A stretch of DNA of 64,000 nucleotides from Apteryx mantelli. Taxonomy: Eukaryota > Chordata > Aves > Apterygiformes > Apterygidae. The stretch spans positions 21,782,001 to 21,846,000 of the forward strand of contig NC_089981.1 of NCBI RefSeq assembly GCF_036417845.1. Direction: 5' to 3'. Shown here one piece after another: positions 6,905 to 30,589 of this stretch. Below the pieces are notes generated by a model. That model was not told where the DNA came from, did no database searches, and was given only the letters and a program-made list of their open reading frames with translations. The first letter of the stretch is position 1. Each line of letters opens with the position of its first letter. A program made the position numbers and the translations under genes.

Positions 6905-9900
6905 ATGGCCCAGCCCCGAGCCTGTGAGTAGCTGCCCCTGGCTCTTTCTGCTGCACGTGGGGCCCCAGTTCAGAGCTGCGGTGGGAGCCCTTTGGCTCCT
7001 CTTTCTGAAGGAGAGAGAGAGAAGAGAGCAGCATGTTTAGGAGAGGGTAAAATCTTTCTTTCCTAGGAGGCTCGGTGCCTGTTCCAGGTTTATGTGGTGA
7101 TGCTGAAAGCTGATGAGTTGCTCCTGAGTGTGGAGCCTTGCGCAAGGAGATACCACATGTGGTGTCACTTGGCAAGGAAGTGAAACGAGGGGAAGGAAAG
7201 AGAGGGAAGAAAGCTCAACTTTATTTTATTTTAGTGTCCCCCCCTCCCCAATCTCTTCTTGCATGTAAATCTCTCTGCTCTGAATACCATCTCTTTGGGG
7301 CTGGTCTGGCTTCACCAGCCATGCGCGATTCTCTTTTCCTGCTTCGTTCCCGTATGGAACCCTGGTGTCCTCCTGATATACTTGCTGACCTCCTCAGGCT
7401 GGCAGTAGCTCCTCAGAGACCTATAGCGTGCATCTAGAGGATGAGGATGTGAGAGAGGGAAGTGCCTGAACTCAACAGCCCTGTCTCATGTGCTGCGGTC
7501 TGGACCCTGGGAGTGGGTGGCAGCACAAGGACTGGCTCGGCGAGTTACTCAGAACTGCTCTGCCCTGTCAGCCCCGGGCTGGGAGTGAAAAACTGCTGTC
7601 CTCAGATGAGATGTGTCTGCTGCTGGAGCTTTCACAGTGTTTTAATGAGAAATAAGCTGATAACGTGGCCCCTGGGTTACTGCTCAAAATCTGATGGGCG
7701 CTGTTTCCCCTACTGCTCCCAGTGTCCTCAGTCCCAGCCAAGATAGCCAAGATCATCTTGCCTCTGCTTTTGTTTGCTCTCCTGAGAGAGCACAGGAGCT
7801 GTTCAAACAGCAGTCTGAGCCCCAAGCTGCGGCTGTGCTGTTGAAACAGCTCCTCTGTTTGGCCTCTGTTTTTTCTTGCTGAGCTTTTTTCTTGCTGGGC
7901 TTTCTCTCACTGGGCAAAACGATCTGAAAATTGTGATGAGCTCAAGCTCTCAAAGGAACCAGCGGTCTGCAGTCGTAAGGGTGTAAGTCTCTCTCCCAGC
8001 AGGCAAGAAAGCAGGCCGATGGCCGAGCACGTGGTGCATGGTCCTTAACCACCTTTCCTGTCCCATGCGTCCAGGTCAGGAGCAGGAGGAGGGTTTGCGT
8101 GAAGTGACTCTCTCTACCCAGAGGCTGCGAGTGCTGCCTTCAGCAGTCCTGAGCAACCCCACGCTGGAGAGTCTTGACCTCGACAGGAACAAACTCAAAC
8201 ACATCACTGGCATTTCTAAGCTTTGCAACTTGAAGAAGTTGATACTATCCAAGAATGAGATTGTGGACTTTCCAGATGAAATCCAGAGCCTGGTCTATTT
8301 AGAGAAACTTGAACTGAATCAGAACCAAATCCGGGTCATTCCAGAGGGGATTTTCTCCCATCTCTCCAGGCTCAAACACTTGCGGCTGAACAACAACCGC
8401 CTCTGTGCTCTCCCCAGGGACCTGGCAGCGTGTCAAGGCAGCCTCCAGTATCTCAACCTGTCCAACAACTTGTTTCGAACCTTCCCCCAGCCTGTCCTGC
8501 AGCTGACAAATTTACAAGAGCTCCACGTGCAGAATAATGCCCTTCGCCAGCTCCCCAAGGAGCTGTTTCAGGGGCAGTCCCTGAAAATGTTCAAGGCCAA
8601 TGGGAACCCGCTCAAGGAGCCACCCAGTGAAGTGTGCGCTGGTGGCCTCCAGCAGATACTGAATTACTTCACGCAGCTGCAAGACTGTTCGGGGCAGGAG
8701 GACAGGAGGGTCAAGACCATGTTCCTGGGGGCTTCACTGGCAGGAAAATCCACCATTTGCAAAAGCCTGAAGCAGGGGCAAACCAAACTGGTGCCTGAGG
8801 AAGAGCGAACGGTTGGGATCGAGATCAGCGAGTTTCGGATCGAGGACTTCACTTTTCTCTTCTGGGACTTTGCTGGCCAGCTGGAGTATTACATGACTCA
8901 CCATGTATTCATCACCCCACAGGCACTTGTCATCCTTGTCATCAATCTCCATATGTAAGTACTGTGCAGGTTTGAGTTCACAGTGGGTGGGAGAAGAAAA
9001 ACGAGTCTGGGTTGGAGACGCTTCCCTCTGCTCTGGATCAGTGCCCTTTCCATGAGACCTTGATGCCTGTTCTTTTCTCCACTGGAGTAACTAACTCCCC
9101 CTCTTCCGCTTCTTGGAGGTGACGCTTTTTCTTAAACCATTAGATCGGTCGTTATCTTGCCTAAGCCCTCTGTTTTGGGAGGTTAGGGAAGTATTGACTT
9201 GTTATATGAGAATTTACTCCAATCTAAACAGTCCCCACCTCTGCTTTCTGCATTGAAAATACCTCTACAAGCCCTCGCTTCTCTTCTAGTGATCCCTGAA
9301 AGCACAGGGAGCATCAGGCTTGGGCTTTTTGATACAGAGGGATGCTCTCATCCACAGCAGAGGGGATGAGACTGCCCCCAGCTTTAGTCAACTTAGCTTA
9401 TGGAGAGGAAACTGGTAGCCGGGGGTTGGATATGGCCCGTGGCAACATTTAGGAGATCTGGGCTCTTCTCTAGTCAATTCCTGGGTCAACACAGGGCACT
9501 TCATTAGGCTTGCGCTGGTGGGAGCTGGCTGAAGACTCAGAGGAGAGACGATGAATTTGGTGGGATTTTTTTTTTTTCCCTGATCCCTCCCCAGGTACCA
9601 AACTAATGACGATACCTTCAAGGACCTTGTGGGTTTCTGGATCAACAACCTGTCCATGCGAGTGCCAAACTCGGTGGTGCTCCCTGTGGGAACCCACACT
9701 GACTGTTGCCAGGAGGGGGAAGTGGAGGAGAAGAGGCGCGACATCATGTTCAAGATTACAGCCATGCTGGAGGAGAGGAAGAGCAACCTCTCTCACTTCA
9801 TCAACAACCTGGAAGACAGCGAGGAGCCCGAATTTTACGTGGACCAGTGGGAGAGGCTGAAGGAGATGGAGAATTGCACATTAACGGTAGGGCTGAGGTT

Positions 9901-17802: not shown

Positions 17803-20072
17803 TCAGTCCAGCTGCATGTTGTACTGCTCGATGAGCTCGAAGAGGCTGAAGGAGTCGGAGAGCTGCAGGCTCAGGCTGCCGCTGTTGAGGGAGGAGGCGC
17901 CCTCCCGCAGCACGTGCTCGTACCAGTACTCGCAGAACTTGGGCACCAGCTGCAAAAGCAAAAGACGCAGCATTTCGGGCAGCTGCCGCGTGCCCTGCCA
18001 CGCCAACGGCTCCCTGTGCGGGCACGCGAGCCCTGCTGAGCAGAGGGGCTCAGCGGTTCATTTAGGAGGGGAGAGGTTTCCTCACCTTCACCAGGATGAG
18101 CTTGGACTCCTTGGGCTTGGCCTTGGAGAAGCGCTGCCCGAAGCAGAGGAAGATGGTGAAGTCAGGTGAGCGCTCCCGGCGGTAGTCTCGGAAATCCCTC
18201 AGCTCTGCGAGAGGAATTTTTAGTGAGTGAGGCTGGGAGAGAGGAGTGTTGAGGGGGCACAGAGGGGCTGGGAGGTTTTGGATGGAGCAAGTTCTCGAGT
18301 CTGCTCCACCCGAGGGAAAGAGGGACCTGGAGTCACCGCTGTGGCCCAGCCTGCCCTTTCCCACCATCCCATCCTCCCTTGGAGGCTGGTGGCCACGTCT
18401 GGGTGGCCACTGTACCCCACCAGGACTTTGGTCCCCCGCGCCAAGCACTGGGCTGCGTACCCGTGCAGAACTCCTTGAAGTCGAAGATCTCCGTCTCTTG
18501 GTCGCGGCACAGCAGTTTGGGCGAGAGGTTGCCGACGTCCAGCTGCCTGGACAGGGCCCAGAAGACCTTGCACTTCTTCAGGCGCTGGGCGTAGATCTTG
18601 TTGTCGCGCTGCTCCAGCAGGAGCCCGGTGTTTTGCAGCAGCTCCTCGGTGAAGCGGCGCTGCTTCTGGTCGGCCAGGCTGGCGGGGCTGGGGAACTGCA
18701 CCAGCCACGTGAGGTCCAGGGGGATGGCAGGGTCAACGGTCTGGTACGCCAGCAGGCACCGGCTGCTGCCCACCTCCTCGTGGTGGAAGAGCTTCCCACG
18801 GTAGAAGATGCTGATGTCCAGGTTGGGAGGGATGCCACCTGCAGGTGACAGTGAGGAAGGCTTTGCCAGTGCTTTGGACCTCACCGTGACTCCAGCCCCG
18901 CTCCCACGGGTCTTGCTTGCTGCCTGTGTCCTTGGCCAGCACGATGCCCCCCGAGCTGGGGTCCCACCACCGGTGTGGTGAACCCAGCGCCCCCGCGAGA
19001 ACCAGGTAAGGGTGCGTGGCGCGCTGGAGCGGAGAAGGGCCCAAAAAACCTTTTAGACCCCAAAAGCAGCTTGGGGGGCCACCGCGGGGCACTGACCTGC
19101 GTTCCCCTGCAGCAGCGCCGCCTCCGGAGCCGCTGGGCAGGGGGCGGCCGGCGGCACCAGCCCCACGTCCGGGGCCGCTGCCGGCGCCTCCCAGGGGCTC
19201 TCGGTGTAGAGCAGCACGTCGCCCGCCACGCTTTGTGCCTCCAGGAGCCCGGCAGCATCCGCGGGGCCGGGCGCCTCCTGCCCGTAGAGGCCGTCCGCCC
19301 AGGCCGGCAGCTGGTGGCCGAGGTCGCACTGCTGCATCACCCACTGCAGCGCGTCCAGCGCGGCCCCGTCGCCCGGCTCTGCTTCGACGCCGAGGCCGTC
19401 GGCATGGGGGCAGGCGTCGGGAGGCCCCGCGGCCCCCGCTGTCGGCGGGGTGTTTCCCAGCGACAGGTCTCGGAAGTCGAACTCCAGCTGCGGCGTCGGG
19501 GTCGGCCAGCGCGGCGGGGCAGCCAGCGGGGCGGCGCGGTGGCGGCCGCCATCCTCGGGCGCCGGGTTTCCCGCGCCCCGCCGAGCCTCGCCGGCGACAC
19601 CGTAGACCTTGTGGGGGTCGTCGCCGCTCTTGGAGCGGTCGTCCAGCAGCACGAACATGCGGGTGCTCCGCAGGGCGCAGCGGAAGTTGGTTTTCCAGCG
19701 GGCCGGGTCCTCCCGCTCCGCCTGGTAGCGGCCGCTGGCTTTGGCCCAGTCCTGGGGGGGCGGCGGGGGCGGCGTTAGCGCGGCTGCGCGGGGGAGAGGG
19801 GCGCACGCGGCCGCATCATCCCGCGGGGCGTCCGGGGGGAGCCCTACCTTGAAGATCTGGAGGTCGCTGCTGCAGACGTCCTTCCTGGCGTTGTGCTTCC
19901 AGGGCACGCGGAAAGCGGTGCGGGTGCCGTCGAGCCAGCGCAGGCCCCCGTACGCCCCGCTGCTCACCGCCTGCAGCAGCCAGGGCCCAAAGCGCAGCGG
20001 CGGCGCCGGCCTGCGCGGGGCGGCCCGTCAGTGCCCCGGCGGGCCCCCTTGCCCGGCCTTACTCCGCGCCGC

Positions 20073-20105
<33 letters not shown>

Positions 20106-20135
20106 CCCGCCCCGTCCTTACCCCTCGCTCTCCAT
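17803..20135 (-). CDS. IRF7: Interferon regulatory factor 7 (complete)
   Basis: Transcription factor activated by TBK1/IKK-epsilon phosphorylation; it dimerises and drives type I interferon genes. Six exons on the minus strand: 20135-20122, 20010-19848, 19751-19097, 18838-18461, 18204-18086, 17949-17803 (TGA). The sum is 1476 nt, 491 aa, the length I recall for chicken IRF7. The N-terminal DNA-binding domain has the five-tryptophan signature at W15, W30, W42, W61 and W78, with the PWKHNARKD recognition region. Residues about 110-275 are a poorly conserved Pro/Ala-rich linker. The IRF-association domain spans about 279-440 (NLDISIFYRGKLF, LKKCKVFWALSRQL, RRERSPDFTIFLCFGQRFSK). The C-terminal tail has a serine cluster (about 462-478, SSLNSGSLSLQLSDSFS), the expected kinase target. 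Introns are short (86-258 bp) and GC content is high. Birds are thought to lack IRF3, so this gene probably covers both roles (established knowledge). Confidence 0.95.
20072..20108. repeat. (CCT)n / poly-C tract in IRF7 intron 1
   Basis: CTC-CTC repeats run into a C homopolymer of about fifteen bases inside the 111-bp first IRF7 intron. Read on the minus (coding) strand it is a G-rich/GGA tract with G-quadruplex potential about 15 bp after the 5' splice site. Confidence 0.8.
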
Positions 20136-20202: not shown

Positions 20203-20209
20203 CCTTATA
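20203..20209 (-). promoter_or_regulatory. TATA-like box of IRF7
   Basis: TATAAGG on the minus strand, about 70 bp upstream of the IRF7 start codon. It predicts transcription starting near 20175-20180 and a 5' UTR of only about 40 nt. Position relative to the ISRE and GAS just upstream supports a core promoter here. Confidence 0.6.
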
Positions 20210-20262
20210 GCGGGGCCGGAGGCGGCCCAGCTTGGCTCGGCCTCCCGGCTCCGGCAGCGCCT

Positions 20263-20271
20263 TTCCTGGAA
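20263..20271. promoter_or_regulatory. GAS-type STAT site in the IRF7 promoter
   Basis: TTCCTGGAA fits the STAT homodimer consensus TTC-N3-GAA and lies about 55 bp upstream of the TATA-like box. An E-box CACGTG follows within a few bases. Binding is predicted from the motif only. Confidence 0.5.
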
Positions 20272-20287
20272 ACCACGTGCGCCTGCT

Positions 20288-20298
20288 GAAAGTGAAAG
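20288..20298. promoter_or_regulatory. ISRE/IRF element of the IRF7 promoter
   Basis: GAAAGTGAAAG is an exact GAAANNGAAA interferon-stimulated response element core, bound by ISGF3 and IRFs. It sits about 80 bp upstream of the TATA-like box and 17 bp from the GAS site. IRF7 is a known interferon-stimulated gene, so an ISRE here is expected and consistent with autoregulation. Confidence 0.7.
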
Positions 20299-20924: not shown

Positions 20925-20985
<61 letters not shown>

Positions 20986-21003
20986 TATATATATAAAATA
21001 TAT
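20925..21003. repeat. (TA)n microsatellite
   Basis: About 75 bp of nearly perfect TA dinucleotides with one slip in the middle, between the IRF7 promoter and the large minisatellite. Cruciform-prone and likely to vary in length. Confidence 0.95.
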
Positions 21004-24000
21004 TTTTAAACCTTTCCTTCTTCTTTTTAGGCCTTTTACTTTCCATCAGAAATTACCCGCCGTCCCGAGGAAACACGCCCGCGAGCGAGTGAATCCCCGC
21101 GCGCGGGAAAGAGGAAGCACCGCGCGCGGGCCGGGGGCTGCAGCTGCTTTCCGGTAACTCGCTCTCGCTTCTCCGGGGCCGCCGGCGCTGGCGGGGGGGG
21201 GGAGCCACCGCGGTGCGGCGCTTCCCCAAAAACGGGCAGCGCCTGTGCAAGCGCGAGGCTCCGGCGGCGCGGAGGGGAAGCGGCGCCGGGACGGGCAGAG
21301 CCGCTCGGAGGCGACGCGCCGGCACGTGCCCCCTCGGCTTTCCCTGGGGCGCTCGAGCTTTTACTGGGGGGGTGTTGAGACAAAAAAAAAACAAAAATAA
21401 CCAAAAAACCCCCCAAACCCGAGATTCGCTGGAGTTTTGCGAACGGGCCAGTGCTCGCCCTGGGGCTCGGGCGGGCGGAGGGTGCTGGCGACCCGGGGGG
21501 CGAAGCTTGCGGCTCTCGGTCTCTTTTCCCCTTGCCGCCTCCCGCTGGGCAGGAAATCCGCCCCTTGCTCTCTGGGAAGCGCTGCCGGCGGCTTTCGCGG
21601 AGCGCCTCCGCGGTGTGCCGGGAGATTTCCCTCGCCCTTCGAGGAAATTCCCCCCGCTCCTTCGCCACGGTTGAAGCCCGAACGGGCAGCGCGGAGGCCA
21701 AACGGACTCGGATGCCAAAAGGCTTTAATCTCGGCTCTACGGGCGATTTTATGGATTTCCAGGCTTCCCCGTCTCGCTGTGGCCGGGCGGAGCAGCCGCG
21801 CGGGTCTCGATGGGCCCCATTGCGCCCGTGTGGGGTTTTTCTTTAGGAAACCATCCCCTTTGCTTTCCAGGATTTCCCCCCGTTGCTTTCCAGGAAATGT
21901 TCTTGCTTCCTAGCAAATATTCCCCTTGCTTTCCAGGCAACGTCTCCCTTGGTTTTTAGCAATCCTACCTGTTGCTTTGCAGGAATTGCCCACTTCCAGG
22001 AAACTTCCCCTTTGCTTTCCCAGAGCTTTCACCATTGCTTCCTAGGATTTTCTCCCTTGCTTTCTAGGCATTTTTCTCCTCTGCATTCCAGGAGTTTTCC
22101 CCCATTCCTTTCGGAGAAGCGGCCCGTGTTATTTCCTATGAACACCTCCACTGCCTTTTAGGAAATTTCCCTGTTGATTTCCAGGAAACTTCTCTTTCAC
22201 TCCCTAGGAAATTACAGTTTTTTCCTAGGAAACTACAGGGTTTTTTTTCTAGGAAATATCTCCTTTATTTCTAGGAATTTTCCCCATTTGCACTTCAGGA
22301 CTTCCTCCAGGGTTTGCCAAGAAAGTTTATTGTTGCTTTCCAGGAGTTTTTACCCTGCCGCTCTAGGCCCTGCCTTGCTCGCTCTCCAGGAAGCGTACGC
22401 CTTTGGTTTCGGGATTCCCATATTGCTTTCTAGGAATTATCCCTACCGCTTCCCAGGAAAACTGCCCCTTCGCCTCCTGGGCGCTTTCTCGCTTGCTTTC
22501 TAGGAAATTTCCCCCTTGGTTTGCAGCAATGCTCCGAGGAATTGCGCTCTGGGAATCGCCGCCGCTGCTTCCTAGGAAATCGCTGCACTTTCTGGGCAAT
22601 GTCCCCGCTGCTTTCTAGGAAATGTCCCCTCGCTGGCTGGGAAGTTCCCCCCCCCTTCCGCTTCCTAGGAATTTTGCCCTTCCTGCTTTTCAGGAAACAG
22701 CTTCTCTTTGTGGGAGGTTTTCCTTTTTGCTTCCTAGGAATTCCCCCCCCCCTTTTTTTTTGGTTTCTAGGAATCCCCCTCTCCCATTTTGCTTTCTAGC
22801 AATGTCTCCCCTCCCCCCCCCTTTTTTTTTGCTTTCTGTGTATCCCCCCCTCTTTTTTCCCTTTCCAGGAATCTTCCATTTTTGCTTTCCAGGAAATAGC
22901 TTCACTTTCTGGGAGATGTCCTGCTTTGCTTTCTAGGGATTTTTCTCATTTTATTTATTTATGCTTTCTAGGAATCTCCTCCCCTTTTTTCCTTTCCTTT
23001 CCAGGAATCCCCCCCTTTTTTTTTTTGCTTTCTAGGAATTTTCTCCCTTTTTTAATGTTCTAGGAATCCCTCCTTTTTTTTTTTTTTTTTTTTGCTTTCT
23101 AGGAAATTCTCCCCTTTCTTTTTGCTATCCAGGAATTGTCCCTGCCTCTTTTTTTTTTTTTTTTTAGGGTTGTCTAGGAAATGTTTTCCCCTTTTTTGCT
23201 TTCTAGGAATTCCCCCCCTTTTTTTTGCTTTTTAGGAATCCCCCTCCTTTTTTCCTTCTTTTTTTTTTTTTTTTTTTTGGTTTCTAGGAATTTTATCCCT
23301 TCTTTTGCTTTCTAGGAAATTTTCCTTTTTTGTCTTTTTCCTTTCTAGTCCCCCTCCCTTTGTTTTTGCTTTCTAGGAAATTTTCCACCTTTTTTGGGGG
23401 GGCTTTTTAGGAATTTTTTTCCCTTTTTTTGCTTTCTAGGAATTCCCCTCCTTTTTTATTTTTCTTTTTCTTTGCTTTCTAGGAATTTTTCCTCTTCTTT
23501 TCCTCTCTGCTTTCTAGGAATTTTTCCTCCCCCCTTCTAGGACTCCCCCTTTTTTTTTTTTTGCTTTCTAGGAATTCCCCCCCTCTTTTTTTTTTTGCTT
23601 TCTAGGAAATTTTTCCCCTTTTTGCTTTCTAGGAATTTTCCTTTTTCTTTTTGCTTTCTAGGAATTTTTCCACTTTTTTTTTTTTTTTTTTGCTTTCCAG
23701 GAATTTTTTCTTTTCTTTTTTTTTTTTTTTTTTTTTGCTTTCTAGGAATTTTCCTTTTTTCTTTTTGCTTTCTAGGAATTTTTCCTCCCTTTATTGCTTT
23801 CTAGGAATTTCCCCTCTTTTTTTTTTTTTTTTGCTTTCTAGGATTTTTTTCCCTTTTTTTTGCTTTCTAGGAATTTCCCCCTTTTTTTTGCTTTCTAAGA
23901 AATTTTCCACCCTTTTTTTGCTTTCTAGGAATTTTCCTTTTTCTTTTTTGCTTTATAGGAAATCCCCCCCCCTTTTTTGCTTTCTAGGAAATTTTCCCTT

Positions 24001-26479
24001 TTTTTTTTTTGCTTTCTAGGAATTTTTCCTCCTTTTTTGCTTTCTAGGAATTTTCCTTTTTCTTTTTGCTTTATAGTTTTTTTGCTTTCTAGGAATTTTT
24101 CCTCCCTTTTTTGCTTTCTAGGAATTTTCCTTTTTTTTTTTTTTTTTTTGCTTTCTAGGAATTTTTTTCCCTTTTTTTTGCTTTCTAGGAATTTTTCCTC
24201 CTTTTTTGATTTCTAGGAATTTTCCTTTTTTTTTTTCTTTTGCTTTCTAGGAATTTTTTTCCTTTTTTTGCTTTCTAGGAATTTTTCCTCCTTTTTTGCT
24301 TTCTAGGAATTTTCCTTTTTCTTTTGGCTTTATAGGATTTTTTTCCTTTTTTGGCTTTCTAGGATTTTTTTTTCCTTTTTTTGCTTTCTAGGAATTTTCC
24401 CTTTTACCCCTCTTTTTTTTTTTTTTGGCTTTCTAGGAATTTTTCAACTTTTTTTGCTTTCTAGGATTTTTTTTCCCTCTTTTTTGCTTTCTTGGAAATT
24501 TTCCACTTTTTTTGCTTTCTAGAAATTTTTTTCCCCTTTTTTGCTTTCTAGGAAATTTTCTTTTTTTTTTTGCTTTCTAGAAATCTTTTTCCTTTTTTTT
24601 GCTTTCTAGGATTTTTTTGCTTTCTAGTAATTTTTCCTTTTTTTTGCTTTCTAGGAATTCTCCTTTTTTTTTTTTTTTTTTTTTTTGCTTTATAGGAATT
24701 TTTTCTTTTTGCTTTCTAGGAAATTTTTCCCCTTTTTTTGCTTTCTAGGAATTTTCCTTTTTTCTCTTTGCTTTATAGGAGTTTTTTGCTTTCTAGGAAT
24801 TTTTTCCCTTTTTTGCTTTCTAGGAATTTCCCCCCTTTTTTTTTGCTTTCTAAGAAATTTTCCACTTTTTTTTTGTTTTCTAGGAATCTTCCTTTTTCTT
24901 TTTGCTTTATAGGAATTTTTTCCCCTTTTTTGCTTTCTAGGAAATTTTCCCCTTTTTTTTGCTTTCTAGGAATTTTTCCTCCTTTTTTGCTTTCTAGGAA
25001 TTTTTCCTTTTTCTTTTTTGCTTTATAGGATTTTTTTCTTTTTTTTGCTTTCTAGGAATTTTTCCTCCCTTTTTTACTTTCTAGGAATTTTCCTTTTTCT
25101 TTTGGCTTTATAGGATTTTTTTCCTTTTTTTTTTTTTTTTTTGCTTTCTAGGATTTTTTTTTTCCTTTTTTTGCTTTCTAGGAATTTTCCCTTTCCCCCC
25201 CTTTTTTTTTTGCTTTCTAGGAATTTTTCTTTTTTTTTTTGCTTTCTAGGAATTTTTCAACTTTTTTTGCTTTCTAGGATTTTTTTCCTTTGTTTTGCTT
25301 TCTAGGAATTTTTTCACTTTTTTTTGCTTTCTAGGAATTTCCCCCCCCCCTTTTTTGCTTTCTAGGAAATTTTCCCTTTTTTTTGCTTTCTAGGAATCTT
25401 TTTTCCTTTTTTTGCTTCTAGGTTTTTTTTGCTTTCTAGTAATTTTTTCTTTTTTTTGCTTTCTAGGAATTCTCCTTTTTTTTTTGCTTTATAGGAATTT
25501 TTTCTTTTTGCTTTCTAGGAATTTTTTCCTTTTTTTAACTTTCTAGGAATTTTTCCTCCTTTTTTGCTTTCTAGGAATTTTTCTTTTTCTTTTTGCTTTC
25601 TAGATTTTTTTCCCCTTTATTTGCTTTCTAAGAATTTTATTCCTTTTTTTCACTTTCTAGGAATTTTTTGCTTTCTGGAAATTTTTCCTCCTTTTTTTGC
25701 TTTCTAGGAATTTTCCTTTTTTTTTTTTCCTTTATAGGAATTTTTTCTTTTTGCTTTCTAGGAAATTTTCCCCTTTTTTGCTTTCTAGGAATTTTCCTTT
25801 TTCTTTTTTTGCTTTCTAGATTTTTTTTTCCCCTTTTGCTTTCTAGGATTTTTTTCCCTTTTTATGCTTTCTAGGAAATTTTCCCCTTTTTTGCTTTCTA
25901 GGGATTTTCCCTTTTTTTGCTTTCTAGGGATTTTCCTTTTTTCTTTTTGCTTTCTAGGAATTTTTCCTCCCTTTTTTGCTTTCTAGGAATTTCCCCCCCC
26001 TTTTTTTTTTTTTTCTTTCTATGAATTTTCCTTTTTCTCTTTGCTTTATAGGAGTTTTTTTTTCTTTCTAGGAATTTTTTCCCTTTTTTTGCTTTCTAGG
26101 AATCTTTTTTCCCTTTTTTTGCTTTCTAGGAATTTTCCTTTTTCTTTTTGCTTTACAGGATTTTTTTTCCTTATTTTTGCTTTCTAGAAAATTTTCCCTT
26201 TTTTTGCTTTCTAGGAATTTCCCACTTTTTTTGCTTTCTAGGAAATTCCCCCCCTTTTTGCTTTCTAGGAAATTTCTTTCCTTTTTTTTTTTTTTTTTTT
26301 TTTTGCTTTCTAGGAAATTTTTTTCCCTTTTTGCTTTCTAGGAATTTTCCATTTTCTTTTTGCTTTCTAGGAATTTTTTTTCCCCTTTTTTGCTCTCTAG
26401 GAATTTTTCCCCTTTTTTTTTTGCTCTCTAGGAATTTTTTCCCCTTTTTTCCCTAGGAATTCCCCTCCTTTTTTCTTTT

Positions 26480-27460
26480 TAGAAAGCAAAAAAGGGGGGG
26501 AAATTCCTAGAAAGCAAAAAGGAGAGATGACAATTCCTATAAAACAAAAGGAAAAAAGGAAAATTCCTAGAAAGCAAAAAAAAAAAGGAGAAAAGGAGGG
26601 AATTCCTAGAAAGCAAAAAAGTGGAAAAATTCCTAGAAAGCAAAAAAAAAAAGGGGGGGGGACACTAGAAAACAAAAAGAAAAAGGAAATATTCCCAGAA
26701 AGCAAAAAAAAAGGGGGGGAATTCCTAGAAAGCAAAAAAGGAGGAAAAAATTCCTAGAAAGCAAAAAAAAAGGTGGGGGGGAGGAAATTCCTAGAAAGCA
26801 AAAAGTGGGAAATTCGGGGGGGGGAGCAAATTCCTAGAAAGCAAAAAAAAAGGGGGGGGGAATTCCTAGAAAGCAAAAAGAAGGGGAATTCCTAGAAAGC
26901 AAAAAAAAATCCTAGAAAGCAAAAAGGGAAAAAAGGAAAAAATTTCCAAGAAAGCAAAAAAGGGGGGAATTCCTAGAAAGTAAAAGGAAAGGCAAAGGAA
27001 AGGCAAAGGAAAGGCAAAGGAAAGGCAAAGGAAAGGCAAAGGAAAGGCAAAGGAAAGGCAAAGGAAAAATCTTAGAAAGCAAAAAAAAAGGGGAGGAATT
27101 GCTAGAAAGCAAAAAGAAGGGGGAACTTCCTAGAAAGAAAAAAGAAAAAGAAAAGGGGGGAATTCCTAAAAAGCAAAAAAGAAAGGAGGAGGGAATTCCT
27201 AGAAAGAAAAAAAAAGTGAAAAAGGGTGGTAGGAAATTCCTGGAAAGGAAAGAAAGTGAGAAAATTCCTAGAAAGCAAAAAAAAAGGGGGGGATTCATGG
27301 AAAGCAAAAAAAGAAAAGGGAGAAAATTCCTGGAAAGCAAAGAAAAAAAGGGGAGGAGAGTCCTAGAAAGCAAAAAAAAGGAAAAAATCCTAGAAAGCAA
27401 AAAAAAAAGGAATGCGTAGAAAGCATGAAAGGGAGGAAATTCCTAGAAAGCAAAAAAAAA
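26480..27460 (-). repeat. Inverted segment of the minisatellite
   Basis: The same repeat read in reverse complement (TTCCTAGAAAGC followed by A/G-rich spacers). Strand switches occur near 26480 and at 27438-27491, where the two orientations face each other around a short AT-rich spacer and form a near-perfect hairpin. Strand composition flips from pyrimidine-rich to purine-rich across the segment. Confidence 0.9.
26986..27068. repeat. Nested 11-bp tandem repeat GGAAAGGCAAA
   Basis: About seven perfect copies of an 11-mer inside the inverted part of the array. Near-perfect identity implies very recent slippage or amplification. It replaces the usual spacer of one unit. Confidence 0.9.
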
Positions 27461-27904
27461 AATTTTTAACCCTTTTTTGCTTTCTAGGAATTTCCCCTTT
27501 TTGCTTTCCAGGCAATGTCGGTCTTATTTTTGAAGAAATTTCACTTTTGCTTTCCAGGTAATTTCCCTTGTCGTTTAGGAATTTCCCCCTTCCTTTCTAA
27601 GAATTTTCCTCCTCTGTTTTCTAGCCCCTCTCCCTCTGAATTTCTAGGAAATTCCTCCATTTTTTCCTAAGAAGTCCCTCGTGCTTTCCTGGCTATTTCC
27701 CCCCCTCTGCTGTCTAAGGCTTTTTCCCTTTTTGCTTGCCAGGAAATTTCCCATTGACTTCCCGGCTGTTTTGCTGAGCCCTTCCCAACCTGGTAAAAGC
27801 ACAGCTACTGCCCAGCAGGGCGTCTTCGTGCTCTGTTTGGAGCCCCTCTGCTTTCCCTCCCTCTCTCCCAAGCCGCTCCTCCAGGTGCCTGCTCGGTGCT
27901 GCGG

Positions 27905-30470
27905 GTCTTTCCTCTTGGTCTTCCTAGTCTCATTCCTGCACGCTTGGACGACCTTCCTCTAATGCTCCCAGGCAGCCTGTCCCTGCTTCCGTCTTCTGTG
28001 CACTTCCTCCTTCTGTCTGAGTTTTGCCAGGAGCTCCTTGTTCATCCATGCAGGTCTCCTGGCCCCTTTGCTCGGCTGCTTGCTCATTGGGATGCACCGC
28101 TCTTGAGCGTGGAGGAGGTGATCCTTGAATATCGACCAGCTCTCTTGGACCCCTCTTCCTTCTGCAGCCTATCCCATGGGATTCTTCCAAGAAGGTCCCT
28201 GAAGAGGTCAGTTTGCTCTCTTGCAGTCCAGTGTTGTGATCATATTTTTGCCCTGCTTTCTCCTTGCAGGATCCTCAACTCCACCATCTCATGGTCACTG
28301 CAGCCAAGGCTGCCCCCAACCTTCAGATCTCCAACCAGTCCTTCCTTGTTTATTAGTACGAGGTCCAGCAGCGCACCTCTCCTCATTGGCTCCTCCACCA
28401 CCTGTGTCTGAAAGTTATCATCATCGATGCTCTCCAGGAACCTCCTGGACTGCTTGTGCCTTGCTGTGTTGTTCCCCCCAGCAGATATCACGGTGGCTGA
28501 AGTCCCCCATGAGAACCAGGGCCTGTGATCATGAGGCTACTTCCAGCTGTCTGTAGAAGTCCTCATCTGCTTCCTCTTCCTGATCAGGTGGCCTGCAGCA
28601 AACACCCACAACAGTGTCACCCACGTTAGTCTGCCCCTTAATCCTTACCCATAAGCTCTCAACCCACCCATCATGCACCCCTAGGCAGAGCTCAATACAT
28701 TCCAGTTGCTCTCTCACATAAAGGGTGACACTCTCTCCTCACCCTCCTGGCCTGGCCTGGCCTTCCTAAAGAGCATGTAGCCATCCCTGGCAACATTCCA
28801 GCCATGCGAGCTATCCCACCATGTCTCTAACCACAATGAGATCATAGCCCTGTGACTGCACACAGATCTAATTCCTCCTGTTTATTCCCCGTGCTACATG
28901 CATTTGTGTGCTGGCACTTCGGAGAAGTATTCGAGCATGCCGATTTCCCGGGAGGGGTGCAAGAGGTTTCCCCCTAGTCTTGCCTTGCAGTTACTTCCCT
29001 GGCTGCCTGCAATTGCTGGAGATATCCCCACTTAAGCCCTGTTTTGCTGACTGCATCGTCTCTATAACTCTCCCCTTACCCCGTCTTTCCTAGTTTAAAG
29101 CCCTTCTTACCAGGTTGGCCAGCCTGTTGGCAAAGACGCGTGCTCCATTTAGTCAGGTGGATCCCATCTCTCCCAATCAGTTGTTGATCTTCAAACTGGG
29201 TCCCATGATCATAGAAACCAAAACCCTGTTGCCAACACCAGTGGCACAGCCAGTTATTTACCTGGAGTATCCATCTACTTCTCCTTCCATCCTTCCCCCT
29301 CACTGGCAGGACTGAGGAGAAAACAACCTGGGCCCCCACACCCTTGACCACCATTCCCAGAGCTCTGAAATCATGTTTGATACTTTCCAAGTTGCCCTTG
29401 GCAGTATCATTGGTGCCCATGTGGAAGAGCAGCAGTGGGTAGTAGTCAGACAGGTGGACAAGCCTCAGCAGTCTTTCCAAGACATCTCACATCTGAGCCC
29501 CTGGCAGGCAGCAAACCTCTCTAGACAACAGGCCAGGTCAGCAAATAGGTGCCTCCGTCCCCTGCAGCAGGGAGTCACCCACAACAATCACTCACCACTT
29601 CTTCCAGGTGTTCCTGCACAGCACAGAGTCCATCAGCCCAGTTGCTTCACTTGAAGCCATGCTCAGCTCCTCCTCAGCTTGGAGAGCACTGAACCCATTC
29701 ATCAGCTGCAGGGTTTCAGGAGGAGCAAAAGCCTTACTTTTCATACGAGAAGTGACCAGTTTCCAGCCTTCATCTTCTACAAAGTTATGGCTAACTTCAA
29801 CATGGCACAGAGCCTGCCTGCACCTCCACTGCTATGGGAGGTTGAGACTCTTGAAGCTCTAGGGTCTCTGACAATATCCTATTTCTCGCTCTTCTCAGAT
29901 ACTACGCAGCCTGCTTACCTTCTCCCGTGACTCCTTTACCTGGTGACACGGCTCATCACCAACAGCACACCTTCTGCGGAAAAGTTGATTGTCAGCCCCA
30001 GGCGCACGGAGCGACCCCAGGCACTCCCTGCAGCCCGAGACCTGCAGAGCTGCATCTGCTGTCAGAAGGTCTGTCTAGGTGGAAGCCTCCGACATGGCAG
30101 AGGCAGCGACTCCAACAGCTGCTGGAGAAAGCACTCTGCACCATGTCATAACCATAGTCAGGAAGGATACGGTCCTAAGACTGGAGAAGGCAGTTCCTCT
30201 TTGCACTCTTCTGCATGAACTGCACTCTAGGCCTGGCTCTTATATAGCCTCTCCCTAGCGCTGACTAACAGGGTGCTTCAACCACCCTAAACAAGGGTCA
30301 GCTGGAACAAAAGCCCCAACTCCCTCTGATCAGGGGCCACCAACAAAGCTTGTTAGCAGCAGCTATACCTAGCTAGAGCCTCCCAGGAGACACTAGGGCC
30401 TCCTTTAACTGTCCTTGCCTAGCTCTCCTTACCTGTCCGCAGCAAGCACCCTCTCATTCCTCAGAGGGTC
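27905..30470 (-). mobile_element. CR1 LINE, 5' part (5' UTR, ORF1, endonuclease), 3' end lost
   Basis: Read on the minus strand. A probable 5' UTR with a TATATAAG box (about 30238-30246) comes first. Next is the ORF1 start region (ASTxTDLLTADAALQVSG, CRECLG), where the expected glutamine codon of ASTQT is a stop. The ORF1 SGNH esterase-like domain follows (HMGTNDTAKGN at about 29.4 kb; GRDGIHLTK at about 29.15 kb). ORF2 endonuclease parts follow (CIELCLGVHDGWVESLWVRI and VVGVCCRPPDQEEEADEDFY at about 28.6 kb; ESIDDDNFQTQVVEEP and SDHEMVEL at about 28.3 kb). The post-endonuclease linker is recognisable to about 27.9 kb (RRPAWMNKEL-type region, VVQACRNETRK). Frames are broken several times, so it is inactive. 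The reverse transcriptase and 3' UTR are absent: CR1 homology stops just before the minisatellite flank. The 5' limit is approximate. Confidence 0.85.
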
Positions 30471-30589
30471 TCTAGAAAGCCCCCCCCAGCTTCCAACAAA
30501 GGTCTCAGAGGGTCTAAGCAGAGCCAAGAAACTGCTGCGCAAACTGCTTGCATCTGTTTGCTGGCTGTTAGCTGCGCTCAACCATCGAG

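Follow-up and report, generated by a model that had tools for sequence, protein, structure and literature searches.

We describe here a kilobase-scale tandem array situated upstream of an IRF7-like gene in a 64,000-nucleotide stretch of Apteryx mantelli DNA (contig NC_089981.1; hereafter the window), and we propose, tentatively and with a probability of about 0.43, that among the arrays read it is the largest homogenised one of an old and dispersed minisatellite family whose core is a BCL6/BCL6B consensus. The array extends over positions 21848-27770 (5,923 bases, the remainder of the window being 58,082 bases), and comes to within about 1.6 kb of the TATA-like box of IRF7, on its upstream side. 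The proposal draws on the identity of the core to a printed factor consensus, on relatives of the array elsewhere in the genome, and on the better preservation of the core than of the spacer in older arrays.

Identity of the core

The 15-mer TGCTTTCTAGGAATT is present in 60 copies in the array and is absent from the remaining 58,082 bases. It is identical over its 15 bases to the BCL6B consensus MA0731.1 as printed in the accessible part of PMC12138950, the comparison being one of printed strings with no matrix scored. A laboratory BCL6 site of 20 bases is printed in the available portion of PMC10651131, and 18 of its 20 bases recur in 16 exact copies in the array and nowhere else in the window. 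The BCL6 core is given as TTCCTAGAA in the accessible sections of a review (PMC11507070). The chance that a random unit would match any of a thousand motifs exactly over 15 bases is roughly of the order of 1e-4 or less, although this estimate could rise with composition bias and with weak consensus positions.

A preliminary description of this DNA, made from its letters, had named the array for STAT proteins and reported more than 100 sites of the form TTC-N3-GAA. Comparison with 200 dinucleotide shuffles bears out the number, with 114 TTCNNNGAA sites in the array against a shuffle mean of 6.2 and a maximum of 13. Against the same shuffles there are nine copies of TTCCNGGAA (0.47 expected), 95 of TTCTAGGAA or its complement (0.38), and 80 of the exact GCTTTCTAGGAA, the constant part of the unit (0.01), and reading confirms the TTCCAGGAA sites that had been reported at 21888-21896 and 22863-22871. 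Controls with the wrong spacing stay at shuffle level in the array (TTCN2GAA, five against 4.9; TTCN4GAA, seven against 6.2), and the reversed control GAANNNTTC is elevated (32 against 5.4), which is what repeated copying of one unit would produce. The remainder of the window holds 14 TTCNNNGAA sites and no copy of the 12-mer GCTTTCTAGGAA. The caution that the motif simply comes with the repeat unit was well placed: a shuffled unit contains TTCN3GAA with a probability of 0.002 (T-rich unit) or 0.006 (edge unit), and since the copies descend from few units, the 114 sites amount to one event copied many times.

Related arrays in the genome

The genome search covered 1.504 Gb in 408 contigs of one assembly. 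TGCTTTCTAGGAATT has 154 matches against one for the backwards pattern, and 43 of the copies form a second large array on the contig of the window (C4:20877490-20880010). A search for paired cores returned 28 matches at 11 loci, with none for the backwards control. These 11 loci, one array on C18 and three found by a search for triple STAT sites make at least 15 arrays with this core, including that of the window, on contigs C3, C4, C7, C8, C9, C10, C14, C15 and C18; the core is the same in these dispersed arrays and the rest of the unit differs. Nine arrays were read as sequence and the other six were judged by core counts and matched strings, and two of the 15 are small, with four and six cores. 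The triple-site search gave 85 matches per orientation against 60 in the backwards control, which is little enrichment by itself, and it led to the three further arrays; as a background, 14 cores with no more than one mismatch occur on both strands of 70 kb of array flanks. In a comparison of 12 of the 15 loci, 898 of 900 between-locus matches fall inside the arrays (100-base margin), and the loci thus have their units, not their flanks, in common. With at least 14 relatives, an array unique to IRF7 is ruled out. The preliminary description had held that finding the array at unrelated loci in related species would speak against a role at IRF7, and the dispersal seen here resembles that outcome, within one genome.

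Five exact 15-mers on C1 and C2 are isolated or nearly so and lie outside arrays, and TTGCTTTCCAGGAAATTTTCCCC with up to two mismatches has 13 matches, ten of them in the window and the other three on C14, C21 and C28, one per contig. The array at C3:20738001-20743000 contains GCTTTCAAGGAAATT and GCTTTTGAGGAAATT variants and switches orientation on reading. Open frames were listed around nine array loci and no gene could be confidently named among them. Long open frames occupy positions 7127-9026 of the stretch around the C9 array, and to the eye these resemble a DNA transposase.

The second C4 array lies 0.93 Mb from that of the window, between two pieces of a CR1-like long interspersed element (LINE). 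A 32-base unit is common to the two arrays and is found at these two places only in the genome (three or fewer mismatches), so descent or exchange probably links the two. The window array is itself followed by a CR1-like fragment (Table 1), of which 29586-30539 is homologous to pieces at the second locus; we take the elements at both loci to be CR1-like from protein motifs. For the fragment at 27880-30540, no 3' part of the element was seen at the point where the array starts. An array that is a fixed part of CR1 is ruled out in that the contacts differ in position and orientation, a comparison that covered the two C4 arrays. At C4:20869809-20880200 the CR1-like element is split by a 6.8 kb insert with a retroviral-looking end and, further on, by the second array.

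The main rival to a family of BCL6-type sites is a neutral or selfish minisatellite, in which a shared core acts as a seed for duplication, slippage or exchange, transcription factors play no part and IRF7 is a chance neighbour. Such a role in duplication, slippage or exchange has been proposed for the human minisatellite core. The spread of arrays over nine contigs, the sharing of units without flanks, the homogenised centre and diverged left edge of the window array, inverted blocks in three arrays (the window, C4:20.88 Mb and C3:20.74 Mb), the insertion of one array into a CR1-like element, and the growth of T and C runs in two arrays are all consistent with this explanation. It fits less well with a core that is a known factor consensus over 15 bases, and with the old arrays, where cores defined by spacing are kept better than the spacer, unlike the result of plain drift, although core-driven copying might give the same pattern. 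We consider a neutral or selfish origin quite possible, if slightly less likely than a family of BCL6-type sites.

Core and spacer conservation in old arrays

Ten arrays besides the two large ones on C4 were considered for a column analysis, and seven, in which the spacing is regular (20-23 bp for the most part, 27 bp in places), were used; those at C3:28.76 Mb, which is irregular, and at C4:35.82 Mb and C15:12.57 Mb, which have few cores, were excluded. This gave 227 tiled units, found by their core or filled in by spacing and with irregular-gap stretches omitted, 185 of which have no more than one mismatch to TTTCTAGGAA. Agreement among units above background is 0.54-0.83 at core columns 0-9, 0.31-0.40 at columns -3 to -1, and 0.02-0.05 at columns -6 to -4 and 16. 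For the 42 units located from their spacing and nothing else, agreement with the array mode is 73% over core cells and 51% over spacer cells (nominal p = 4e-10, in a test that allowed a one-base shift and treats cells as independent). The core is thus kept better than the spacer, which, as far as sequence comparison goes, points to constraint or core-driven copying more than to plain drift.

In the tiled units retention is 0.90 for the TTC/GAA halves, 0.89 for the middle base of the centre and 0.85 for its three bases together, with 0.70 for the flanking GC, 0.79 for the flanking TT and 0.49 for the spacer; in the spacing-placed units the flanks remain at 0.73 (GC) and 0.81 (TT) against 0.51 for the spacer. 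Retention of the flanking GC and TT would favour a footprint of BCL6 length, and the weaker centre would suit either BCL6 or STAT. The 232 TTCNNNGAA sites in the ten other arrays have TAG at the centre in 141 cases and CAG in 28 (169 of 232), a preponderance to be read alongside the discovery of most of these arrays by a TAG-centred pattern. In three arrays found regardless of centre, TTTCYAGGAA makes up 9 of 23, 16 of 19 and 7 of 9 of the TTTCNNGGAA sites on the main strand.

These data also bear on the proposal of the preliminary description that the array consists of STAT sites, or gamma-activated sites (GAS), and serves as an interferon-responsive enhancer or a STAT sponge for IRF7. The excess of TTCNNNGAA and TTCCNGGAA over shuffles agrees with it, as do the sites in the IRF7 promoter that resemble an interferon-stimulated response element (ISRE) and TTTCCAGGAA, the varied centres at C3:20.74 Mb, and the TTC/GAA halves if counted as the best-kept part of the spacing-placed units. 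However, the kept stretch exceeds the length of a STAT site, many other loci carry arrays of this core, and among printed consensus strings the longest found to match it, in the accessible parts of the sources, is that of BCL6/BCL6B; we regard a STAT array as unlikely. What stands of the earlier proposal is a STAT-compatible kilobase array directly upstream of IRF7, but a BCL6-type core is the better name, since a STAT dimer needs TTC-N3-GAA only, whereas the identity extends over 15 bases for BCL6B and 18 for BCL6 and the GC and TT flanks are kept. The idea of a super-responsive enhancer does not fit the sign of regulation to be expected, which would be repression, BCL6 being described as mainly a repressor in the accessible sections of PMC11507070, with some STAT5-responsive genes regulated through overlapping motifs.

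Organisation of the array

Like its relatives, the array is built of tandem units, the commonest spacing in these arrays being 20-30 bp, within the range of 10-60 bp taken for such units, and it is divided into diverged edges, a homogenised forward block and an inverted block that had been recognised in the preliminary description (Table 1). With up to two mismatches allowed, the left edge has 33 units, among them six exact TTTCTAGGAA, and the inverted block has 28 units and 12 exact 15-mers. The perfect 11-bp repeat within the inverted block is probably very young.

A kB-like motif, GGRRNNYYCC, occurs in many units of 22961-26479, where it overlaps the end of the core. Its count is above that of base shuffles in 12 out of 13 stretches, with 44 in the forward block (21848-26478) where shuffles have 0.08, but the motif is carried with the unit. 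Scans of the window with Rfam (gathering scores) and ARAGORN gave no match.

Table 1. Coordinates of the array and of neighbouring features in the window
Feature	Position	Strand	Basis
Left array edge, diverged units like TTGCTTTCYAGGAAATNTTCCCC, commonest spacing 23 bp	21848..22960	+	
Homogenised forward block of GCTTTCTAGGAATT cores separated by T and C runs, commonest spacing 27-30 bp	22961..26479	+	
Inverted block of array units	26480..27464 (about)	-	
Perfect 11-bp tandem repeat (AAAGGAAAGGC, 7.7 copies) within the inverted block	26983..27067	.	
Right array edge, diverged forward units resume	27465..27770	+	read in sequence
IRF7 gene, ATG at 20135, left end approximate	17806..20135	-	Pfam, PDB comparison, reading
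TATA-like box TATAAGG of IRF7	20203..20209	-	read by eye
TTTCCAGGAA, BCL6/GAS-like site, IRF7 proximal promoter	20263..20272	-	
ISRE-like TTTCACTTTC, IRF7 promoter	20288..20297	-	
CR1-like LINE fragment, open reading frame (ORF) 1 and first part of ORF2, limits approximate	27880..30540	-	frames, homology

IRF7 and neighbouring genes

The gene next to the array is IRF7-like, as judged from its encoded domains. It has Pfam IRF and IRF-3 domains on the minus strand, and its DNA-binding exons are closer to the IRF7 structure in PDB (3qu3, E 2.8e-26) than to IRF3 (2.5e-18). The best match of the C-terminal domain is IRF5, with no IRF7 structure among the 11 matches, and the last frame (17806-18057), which has no Pfam match, was identified by eye. 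The distance of about 1.7 kb that had been given between the array and the start of IRF7 is a fair figure, and the GAS and ISRE elements that had been attributed to the IRF7 promoter have counterparts in the TTTCCAGGAA and ISRE-like sites of Table 1. Together with the TATA-like element these sites fall within a compact promoter of 95 bases (20203-20297). Between this promoter and a CpG-rich stretch at 21001-22000 lies a (TA)n tract of some 40 copies (20925-21003).

On the far side of the array, two of six tested frames encode mitochondrial-carrier domains on the minus strand, so the array appears to be intergenic. On the plus strand, a single frame at 7987-8955 encodes a Roc GTPase domain preceded by leucine-rich repeats.

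The position of these genes bears on a further explanation, in which the array would act on RNA as about 100 repeats of a 3' splice acceptor, each a polypyrimidine tract followed by CTAG/G, where the slash marks the junction. The sequence TTTTTTTGCTTTCTAG/GAA is indeed acceptor-like, but both IRF7 and the mitochondrial-carrier gene are on the minus strand, where most units read A-rich, and the GAA that follows AG/G is kept equally with the upstream half. Splice acceptors do not require GAA at this position. Strand and kept GAA rule out an acceptor array to our satisfaction, and we give it very little weight.

Discussion

A role for BCL6 beside IRF7 has a precedent. In the accessible part of PMC4700451, mouse Bcl6 is reported to bind the promoter of IRF7, in which five sites are predicted over about 1.6 kb, and to act there as a repressor together with NCoR2 and HDAC3; this makes a BCL6 reading of the array apt by analogy, although the study concerns mouse and is, in that part, silent on arrays. 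By this analogy, BCL6-family proteins would bind the array as a dense homotypic platform, which the match of the core suggests with moderate confidence. Bound BCL6 would recruit co-repressors, NCoR2 and HDAC3 as in the mouse, and in resting cells the effect of the array would be to dampen or buffer transcription from the IRF7 promoter close by, which itself carries a single site of the same type between its ISRE-like and TATA-like elements. After interferon, STATs reading the inner nine bases may compete with the BCL6 family. The central T and C runs and the growth in copy number could come from ordinary slippage or unequal exchange. Our confidence in an effect of the array on IRF7 is low.

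Several considerations weigh against a BCL6-site family with a function at IRF7. The contrast between core and spacer is partly built in, because 185 of the 227 units were chosen by their core and the column modes were derived from the very units compared. Matching also remains at 67% and 58% in spacer columns -8 and -7. The spacing-placed units keep the TTC/GAA halves (0.78) better than the centre (0.64), and the core also fits STAT. At C3:20.74 Mb, an array on the minus strand, TTTCYAGGAA accounts for only 9 of 23 TTTCNNGGAA sites and there are many other centres, which argues against the centre being fixed. The second large array lies within a CR1-like element that it interrupts. Since the family is dispersed, the array may have come to lie next to IRF7 by chance; for one of some 15 arrays to be close to an immune gene would be unremarkable.

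A stronger form of the proposal, in which these are BCL6-site minisatellites with a core under purifying selection that act as length-tunable repressor platforms or sinks, the IRF7 member setting a lineage-specific interferon threshold, seems to us doubtful. If the BCL6 family does occupy the arrays, then rapid growth or loss of units would add or remove repressor sites next to a master antiviral gene, and species might in this way come to differ in their interferon response. Even with IRF7 as a chance neighbour, a minisatellite family in which a repressor consensus is better preserved than the spacers would allow the long-standing question of why such cores are shared to be tested with a named protein.

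Literature searches, with most subscription papers outside their reach, did not find TTTCTAGGAA together with a minisatellite. Of 17 papers containing one of three core strings, the 16 with listed titles include none on repeats, and the 12 that combine BCL6 with minisatellites include none on such an array, in both cases as judged by title; further searches gave nothing on such a family among the matches listed. TTTCTAGG and CCTAGAAA are absent from the main text of a survey of chicken repeats (PMC4992247).

Comparison with known systems places the family among recognisable kinds of repeat. The hypervariable minisatellites of Jeffreys are dispersed tandem arrays of differing units with a common core of 10-15 bases, and the arrays described here are likewise dispersed and tandem, with units that differ around a common core. 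However, the core of the Jeffreys minisatellites is G-rich and chi-like, whereas that described here agrees with a BCL6/STAT consensus; a further difference is the strong divergence of the old arrays beyond their core. GGAA microsatellites bound by EWS-FLI1 act as enhancers, and they share with the IRF7 array a tandem factor core forming a dense platform, putative in the present case; the factor is a different one, and by analogy the sign expected here would be repression. The regulatory variable number tandem repeat (VNTR) MNS16A carries GATA1 sites, as given in the accessible part of PMC5438627, and in VNTRs of this type, as here, a promoter gains or loses nearby factor sites as copy number varies. 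The IRF7 array differs in having about 100 sites, in belonging to a genome-wide family, and in being known from sequence alone. Closest in location is the mouse Irf7 promoter, which, in the accessible part of PMC4700451, has BCL6-type sites upstream of the gene much as the present IRF7 has one at 20263-20272, although the five predicted mouse sites are spread over about 1.6 kb and here there is a kilobase tandem array.

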